From assembly GCA_014763665.1 (NCBI GenBank), contig JACXUY010000016.1, forward strand, positions 1-60,222: DNA of 60,222 nucleotides, given 5' to 3'. Every line of letters begins with the position of its first letter. The first letter of the stretch is position 1. The notes under the pieces are model-generated. The model saw only the letters and a list, made by a program, of their open reading frames with translations, was not told the DNA's origin and made no database searches. Position numbers and translations under genes: made by a program. Of the stretch, positions 39,537 through 60,222 are shown in pieces. This DNA comes from Gammaproteobacteria bacterium (lineage in GTDB: Bacteria; Pseudomonadota; Gammaproteobacteria; Thiomicrospirales; Thiomicrospiraceae).

Positions 39537-40125
39537 TTCTGCCCTGCCAGTAACAAGTCAATCAACCCATCTACCACACGCAATTCTTTTGCCTATAACC
39601 TAGATAATTTATCGACAACAGGTAACAAAGGCGCATATTCAGCACTCATTACTTGAAGATTCTAACGTGAACTTTGGTGTTCAGTTAGGTTATGGCGCCA
39701 CTTTAGGTGGTAATTTTTACTTGGGTGCAGAAATTGGTTTACGTAATAGCATTGGCGATTTTGGCGACAAAACTTCAACTGGTGAAATCAATGGCGTTGC
39801 TTACTCTGAAAAAATTAGCGCTAAAACCACTACAACAAAAATGTTTTCTATCCTACTAGGCTTCGTTGTGTCGCCGAATGCACTCATTTACGCACGTCTT
39901 GGAAAAGGCAATGCTGATAGTGAAGTGACTTACACGCAAAATGCTCCTTCAATCAATTTCAGTGAAACTGAAAAATCAACTAACGATGGCGACTTTACGA
40001 TTTATGGTTTAGGTTTAGACTATTTAATGACTAAAAACCTTTCGGTCAAAGTAGAAGCTAATAAAATCTCTGCTGACGACGCAGACGGCACTTCATTCAA
40101 TGTAGGTGTTAACTACCGCTTCTGA
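39537..40125 (+). pseudogene. Decayed outer-membrane beta-barrel protein gene (5' truncated, frameshifted)
   Basis: The frame 39667-40125 reads as amphipathic strands of an OmpA/Opa-like barrel: NFGVQLGYGATLGGNFYLGA, MFSILLGFVVSPNALIYARL, and the terminal FNVGVNYRF ending in Phe as barrel proteins do. It lacks a signal peptide, has no ribosome site, and starts at GTG in mid-barrel. A second frame upstream (39537-39653) reads NLSTTGNKGAYSAL before a TGA; a shift near 39650 would join the two. greB ends only 10 nt before, so the 5' part is lost. A terminator follows. Confidence 0.65.
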
Positions 40126-40157
40126 TAACTGGAAATCCTGATTTCAATAACCACTAA

Positions 40158-40186
40158 CCCCACCAACTCGGTGGGGTTTTGTTTTA
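40158..40186 (+). terminator. Rho-independent terminator after the barrel-gene remnant
   Basis: Perfect 7-bp stem CCCCACC / GGTGGGG with a 5-nt loop, followed by TTTTGTTTTA. Confidence 0.85.
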
Positions 40187-40216
40187 TAGCCCACTCAAAA
40201 ATTGGCTTTAACACCG

Positions 40217-40240
40217 CACAAGTCGACAAGTTGACAAGTT
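40217..40240 (+). repeat. Tandem 8-bp repeats upstream of the toxin-antitoxin pair
   Basis: CACAAGTC, GACAAGTT and GACAAGTT follow head to tail, 42 nt before the antitoxin ATG. The junction creates TTGACA (40231-40236), a consensus -35 hexamer. Repeats at this place could be the autoregulatory operator bound by the antitoxin. No clear -10 was found at normal spacing. Confidence 0.5.
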
Positions 40241-40281
40241 TTGTTGAATAATTGAGGGAAGAATTCACAGGAGGCGTAAAA

Positions 40282-40527
40282 ATGGAAGCAGTTGCCGTTG
40301 CCCAATTAAAGGCTGATTTCTCTCGTATTCTATCCAGAATTGAACAAACGGGCGAAGGAGTCATTGTCGAGTATGGACGCCTGCATAAAAAAGTTGCCGT
40401 TCTATTGCCTTACTCATCAAAATACGAAGAACAGGCAGAGCGTCAATTTGGCATTTTGCAAGGCAAAGGCAAGGTCGAATTTCATGATAATTTTGATATA
40501 ACAGAAGATGATTTACTCGGCTTATGA
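40282..40527 (+). CDS. Phd/YefM-type antitoxin
   Basis: The 81-residue protein begins MEAVAVAQLKADFSRILSRI and has EQTGEGVIVEYGRLHKKVAV, the N-terminal DNA-binding fold of the Phd/YefM family, then an acidic C-terminal tail (FHDNFDITEDDLLGL) that would bind and mask the toxin. AGGAGG lies 7 nt before the ATG at 40282, which is preferred to an upstream frame. The stop overlaps the toxin ATG by 4 nt. Confidence 0.9.
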   Translation: MEAVAVAQLKADFSRILSRIEQTGEGVIVEYGRLHKKVAVLLPYSSKYEEQAERQFGILQGKGKVEFHDNFDITEDDLLGL

Positions 40528-58421: not shown

Positions 58422-58508
58422 ACTGTCTAAGCCATCGTTAACAATAGACAAATCAATGATACACAGGCTATGATCCACTCATATCAATAACCATAAGGAA
58501 ACTGACTC

Positions 58509-58916
58509 ATGGCAAACCCCAACGCTGCATCCATTCAATTACCTAAACCCATTATGATTGGCGCAGCTATACTGATTTTACTTGGACTCTTCCTAGCATC
58601 TGGCGACCCTGGCAAAAAAGAACGAGAGTAGCTTCGTCAAGCATTGACAGAAGCACAAGCCAAGATTACCGCCTTGGAAGCTACTCAAACAGAACAACAA
58701 GCCCAACTCAAATCTCAGCAAGAAAATAGTCAGCTTCTCCTGCGTCGTCTCGAAGTCAGTGAAGAAAATAACACGCGTTTACGTTCGCGCATAGATGAAG
58801 TCGAGCGTCAGCTGACTGCACTACGCAAAGCGGTTGCCAACGCCATCGAACCAGCGGCAAAGCCAACAGCCAAGTCAGCAACAGCTACCAAAACCAAGGC
58901 ACCTAACAAAAAATAA
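58509..58916 (+). pseudogene. Membrane-anchored coiled-coil protein interrupted by an in-frame TAG
   Basis: A strong start (ATG with AAGGA 8 nt upstream) opens a frame with a membrane helix (KPIMIGAAILILLGLFLASG) and GKKERE, then TAG at 58629-58631. The same frame continues without break as LRQALTEAQAKITALEATQT, a long Glu/Gln/Leu coiled coil, ending in a Lys/Ala/Thr-rich tail at TAA 58914-58916. Together they make a natural anchor plus coiled coil of about 135 residues. A CAG in place of TAG gives the smooth helix ...KKEREQLRQALTEAQ.... Either a recent nonsense mutation, a readthrough gene, or a base error. Confidence 0.7.
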
Positions 58917-60024: not shown

Positions 60025-60030
60025 CCGCTT

Positions 60031-60066
60031 TTCTCATTAAGGCGAGACAACTCGCCTTAATGAGAA
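60031..60066. terminator. Long perfect hairpin after msrA
   Basis: TTCTCATTAAGGCGAG (60031-60046) and CTCGCCTTAATGAGAA (60051-60066) form a perfect 16-bp stem with a 4-nt ACAA loop, 7 nt past the msrA stop. Only AATTT follows, so it is an atypical terminator. Confidence 0.65.
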
Positions 60067-60089
60067 AATTTATTGCTTAACTTCAGGCA

Positions 60090-60121
60090 ATAAAAAACCC
60101 CGATCATTTCTGAACGGGGTT
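60090..60121 (-). terminator. Terminator of the rRNA operon
   Basis: Read on the minus strand, CCCCG / CGGGG form a stem around a 12-nt loop, followed by a run of T residues (complement of the A-run at 60092-60097). It lies about 10 nt after the 5S 3' end. Confidence 0.8.
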
Positions 60122-60130
60122 AGGTATTAA

Positions 60131-60222
60131 GTGCCTGGCGATGACCTACTCTCACATGGGGAAGCCCCACACTACCATTGGCGCTGACGGGTTTCACTTC
60201 TGAGTTCGAGAAGGGATCAGGT
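60131..60222 (-). rRNA. rrf: 5S rRNA, 3' portion (5' end outside window)
   Basis: On the minus strand the 92 nt match gammaproteobacterial 5S rRNA: CGAACTCAGAAGTGAAAC, GCGCCAATGGTAGTGTGGGG, CCCCATGTGAGAGTAGG, and the closing GCCAGGCAC at the 3' end. About 20-25 nt of the 5' end are missing. The rest of an rRNA operon should lie beyond the right edge, oriented into this window. Confidence 0.96.

Follow-up and report, generated by a model that had tools for sequence, protein, structure and literature searches.

A TAG codon at a glutamine site of a small anchored coiled-coil gene is probably a recent nonsense allele

Comparison with a congener (genome G003) indicates that positions 58509-58916 of the window, i.e., the whole 60,222-nucleotide stretch of DNA analysed, hold one gene and not two, because the congener has a continuous frame, carries Gln where the window has an in-frame TAG, and shares the same downstream neighbours. 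The break is probably a recent nonsense substitution, from a Gln codon to TAG, in a single small lineage-specific gene, and the allele is most likely either a fresh pseudogene or a strain or population polymorphism. Features lie on the forward strand unless stated otherwise.

From ATG 58509 the frame runs through 40 codons (58509-58628), meets TAG as codon 41 (58629-58631) and then, by sequence and translation, continues with 94 in-frame open codons to TAA 58914-58916 (3' part, 58632-58916). The junction reads KKERE*LRQAL, and the +4 base is C. An open stretch of 90 codons arises in 1.75% of mononucleotide shuffles at the same base composition; chance is irrelevant to this stretch, since homology with G003 spans the TAG. 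The 5' half encodes one strongly hydrophobic helix at residues about 14-32 (Kyte-Doolittle maximum 2.29), conserved with G003, and the 3' part encodes a coiled coil, with L/I/V/M at 65% of heptad a/d positions from residue 42 to about 109 (reached by 0 of 10,000 shuffles), followed by a basic, low-complexity C-terminal tail rich in Lys, Ala, Thr and Pro. The preliminary description, made from the letters alone, had noted a frame that stays open past the TAG and coiled-coil-like to 58916, and this is borne out by the sequence, its translation and the homology with G003. No Pfam or NCBIfam family scored above cut-off for the product, which would be, as far as the collections examined show, a bitopic coiled-coil protein restricted to the genus; from its architecture one can only guess at a scaffold or at a tether in the envelope.

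Among 57 relatives searched, one clear ortholog was found, in the congener G003 (E 1.9e-39, no internal stop), on a 14,898-bp contig (public record JAEMQD010000003.1, Thiotrichales MAG). The match covers residues 6-132, across the TAG, and the G003 protein is a single unbroken frame of 146 aa, 59% identical across both halves. The TAG codon aligns with a CAA (Gln) codon of G003 (EERQQLAQ versus KERE*LRQ), so that the sole relative with the gene carries Gln at this site, and downstream of the G003 copy lie a CxxCxxCC/ycgN-type gene and msrA, as in the window. The earlier proposal of one protein, broken where an amber codon replaces Gln, together with the check that it suggested at the related locus, thus agrees with what G003 holds. 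Its further suggestion of a single C-to-T change from CAG to TAG stands for the Gln site; the codon in G003 is CAA, so a one-step C-to-T change requires CAG as immediate ancestor, and that ancestor is inferred and unseen. The evidence for the sense allele comes from the congener and not from same-species strains or reads.

Further orthologs were sought with a profile of the two sequences, which at E 0.001 gave none beyond G003 in 63 family and order genomes. Among the loci with weaker profile matches that were read, three (in G002, in G032 and in the window's own genome) proved to be FtsB lying after enolase. A class-level match in G052 (E 1.8e-4), confined to the coil region, was attributed to similarity between coiled coils and not counted as an ortholog. 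The viral contigs gave no ortholog, and a scan of genome contigs returned the G003 record as its sole match. In G002 an nrdB-like gene, not the anchored-coil gene, adjoins the ycgN-type gene. The nearest sister is G001, with 97% identity in its RmuC fragment; its contig stops inside rmuC, the TAG site lying beyond its sequence.

The continuous ortholog also bears on the alternative that the locus makes two proteins, one an anchor peptide that stops at the TAG and the other a soluble coiled coil that begins anew at TTG 58644 (58644-58646). This TTG is in frame, 12 nt past the TAG and within termination-reinitiation reach, and the open reading frame list gives from it a 90-aa coil, which would be soluble. 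However, no clear ribosome-binding site precedes it in the sequence and the ortholog is a single continuous protein, and we regard the alternative as extremely unlikely; two wholly independent genes were rejected on the strength of the G003 copy. The preliminary description had stated that without readthrough only a 40-residue membrane peptide would be made, which holds barring such a restart; the TTG was not mentioned there.

TAG is an ordinary stop in this genome, because RF1 is intact (TIGR00019, 538 bits), no CTA anticodon was found, PylS is absent and other frames in the window end in TAG. ARAGORN gave no CTA anticodon among 35 tRNA genes found with Rfam, a set that is incomplete (e.g., without tRNA-Ile GAT, probably owing to unassembled rRNA operons), although a missed suppressor is unlikely. 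A single tRNA-Gln was detected, with anticodon TTG. No PylS scored above cut-off, the sole TIGR02367 match reaching 19 bits versus 178, and a sub-cut-off score to this model occurs in E. coli and other controls as well. Among the main reading frames of the window, 8 of 66 end in TAG, and the open run after these TAGs is 1-41 codons, as opposed to 94 here. A changed genetic code or a suppressor tRNA was accordingly rejected (intact RF1, no CTA anticodon found, normal TAG stops), as was pyrrolysine decoding (absent PylS, no CTA tRNA seen). The earlier hint that TAG followed by C is a leaky context has nothing specific behind it, given that no suppressor tRNA was found, RF1 is present and TAG is a normal stop.

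No second stop or frameshift is present in the gene when it is compared with G003. By the Nei-Gojobori method, dN/dS is about 0.23 for the coil and 0.53 for the tail, and dN is 0.23 with saturated dS for codons 1-40, values which come from two sequences only and in which constraint cannot be assigned to the branch after the TAG arose. A dN/dS below 1 in the 3' part and the lack of a second lesion argue that the gene functioned as a whole through most of its divergence from G003, the TAG being either recent or tolerated. In-frame stops are widespread in bacterial genes, and most last only briefly, at the time scale of polymorphism within populations (PMC7918605).

A nonsense substitution would then read as follows. 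A gene for a membrane anchor of one helix, followed by a coiled coil and a basic tail of low complexity, would have had its Gln codon 41 mutated to TAG recently in this genome; translation would start normally and halt at the TAG, so that the product would be an anchor peptide of 40 residues and the cell would have no coiled coil, or traces of it only, through misreading by the near-cognate tRNA-Gln or a weak restart at the TTG. The comparison and the genome establish a single ancestral gene, Gln in the relative, TAG as a normal terminator in this genome and a frame free of other damage; how old the mutation is, and that readthrough is inefficient, we infer. Counter to the nonsense reading, a constrained 3' part is equally expected of a functional readthrough gene, and a hairpin directly past the TAG is stronger than chance expectation.

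It is quite unlikely that the TAG is instead a miscalled base, or one that a minority strain contributed to the assembled consensus. One wrong base would suffice if the true codon were CAG; the assembly is in fragments, 238 contigs in all, and the congener's sequence of this locus comes from a MAG, as the window's own may too. On the other hand, random errors seldom enter a consensus at normal coverage, and no other obviously interrupted gene, nor a second pair of frames resembling one gene split by a single TAG, occurs in the 60-kb window.

The hairpin (58631-58654) opens with the G that closes the TAG and folds as GCUUCGUCAA-GCA-UUGAC-A-GAAGC, with 10 pairs and one bulge. A 101-nt stretch with it has a fold z of -2.4, only 0.7% of the 27-nt windows nearby reach a comparable fold, and the hairpin's energy is -10.6 kcal/mol, versus -2.9 for the G003 equivalent. 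It is stronger than chance expectation, yet one hairpin beside a site picked for study says little, and it is likely due to chance. As a conserved stimulatory element it finds no counterpart in G003, though G003, without the stop, would not need one.

In functional readthrough, a fraction of ribosomes would decode the TAG, mainly with tRNA-Gln, and the gene would yield the membrane peptide plus a smaller amount of the full anchored coiled-coil protein; the hairpin past the TAG could pause the ribosome. We consider this unlikely, and very unlikely the stronger form of a regulated UAG readthrough switch in an orphan gene, setting the ratio of free membrane peptide to membrane-tethered coiled coil. 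The frame past the TAG is open and constrained and the hairpin folds better than shuffles, but a hairpin directly at the stop would sit inside the ribosome's mRNA channel, and G003 lacks it. RF1 is intact, the one tRNA-Gln detected has anticodon TTG, and the TAG is known from one genome, in which conservation of the stop cannot be shown. Misreading of UAG by tRNA-Gln in E. coli, as cited in PMC5289835, and the increase of readthrough by +4C in yeast (PMC5289835) count in favour of readthrough.

The gene starts 87 nt downstream of rmuC (PF02646, 310 bits), and its end lies 17 nt short of a convergent CxxCxxCC-domain (ycgN-type) gene (PF03692), with msrA (PF01625) next. A Shine-Dalgarno-like AAGGAA (58495-58500) precedes ATG 58509, and AAAAGGATAATAAAG stands before the ATG of the G003 copy. 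A consensus scan gave a sigma-70-like match, TAGACA-18 nt-TATGAT (58445-58474, 10 of 12 positions), which is suggestive only as a promoter of the gene, 0.7 sites of this grade being expected by chance in the region; upstream of the G003 copy TTGCTT/TATCAT can be seen by eye. In G003 a methyl-accepting-chemotaxis-like gene (L008:2171-3871), absent from the window, lies between rmuC and the ortholog. Shortly past msrA the contig, and with it the window, ends in an apparent 5S rRNA gene (60029-60222); a near-identical stretch recurs at G000:C153:73-144, and the break is therefore probably at a repeated rRNA operon. Elsewhere in the window, a minus-strand open frame of 98 codons, ended by TAG, lies at 40116-40409 between better-supported frames.

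A nonsense mutation is an ordinary event in bacterial genomes, and the case would bear on bacterial readthrough only if the TAG turned out to be conserved or to be decoded. It does show that a reading of raw sequence can correctly rejoin both parts of a broken gene, and it brings to light a small membrane protein, restricted to the genus, whose gene would be missed or split by gene callers in this genome.

With respect to known systems, FtsB/DivIC-type division proteins are likewise short, with a coiled coil after a single N-terminal transmembrane helix, and the weak profile matches of the gene's alignment land on FtsB loci. In contrast, the gene scores 11.9 bits against a DivIC cut-off of 28.9 and sits elsewhere than the FtsB locus. 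The window's genome has its own FtsB after enolase (PF04977, 62.5 bits), and paralogy with FtsB was rejected, the weak family-genome matches that were read being FtsB at that different locus. YtxH-like proteins (PF12732) similarly combine a small N-terminal transmembrane segment with a helical one, and of the weak Pfam matches that the intact relative gives, this family's is the best, at 18.6 bits, far under the curated cut-off of 37.5 bits. Finally, while the stops described by Belinky et al. 2021 (PMC7918605) are common to at least two species and the present TAG comes from one genome, both concern a TAG at a Gln site in an otherwise coding, constrained gene, TAG/CAG being the worked example of that study.
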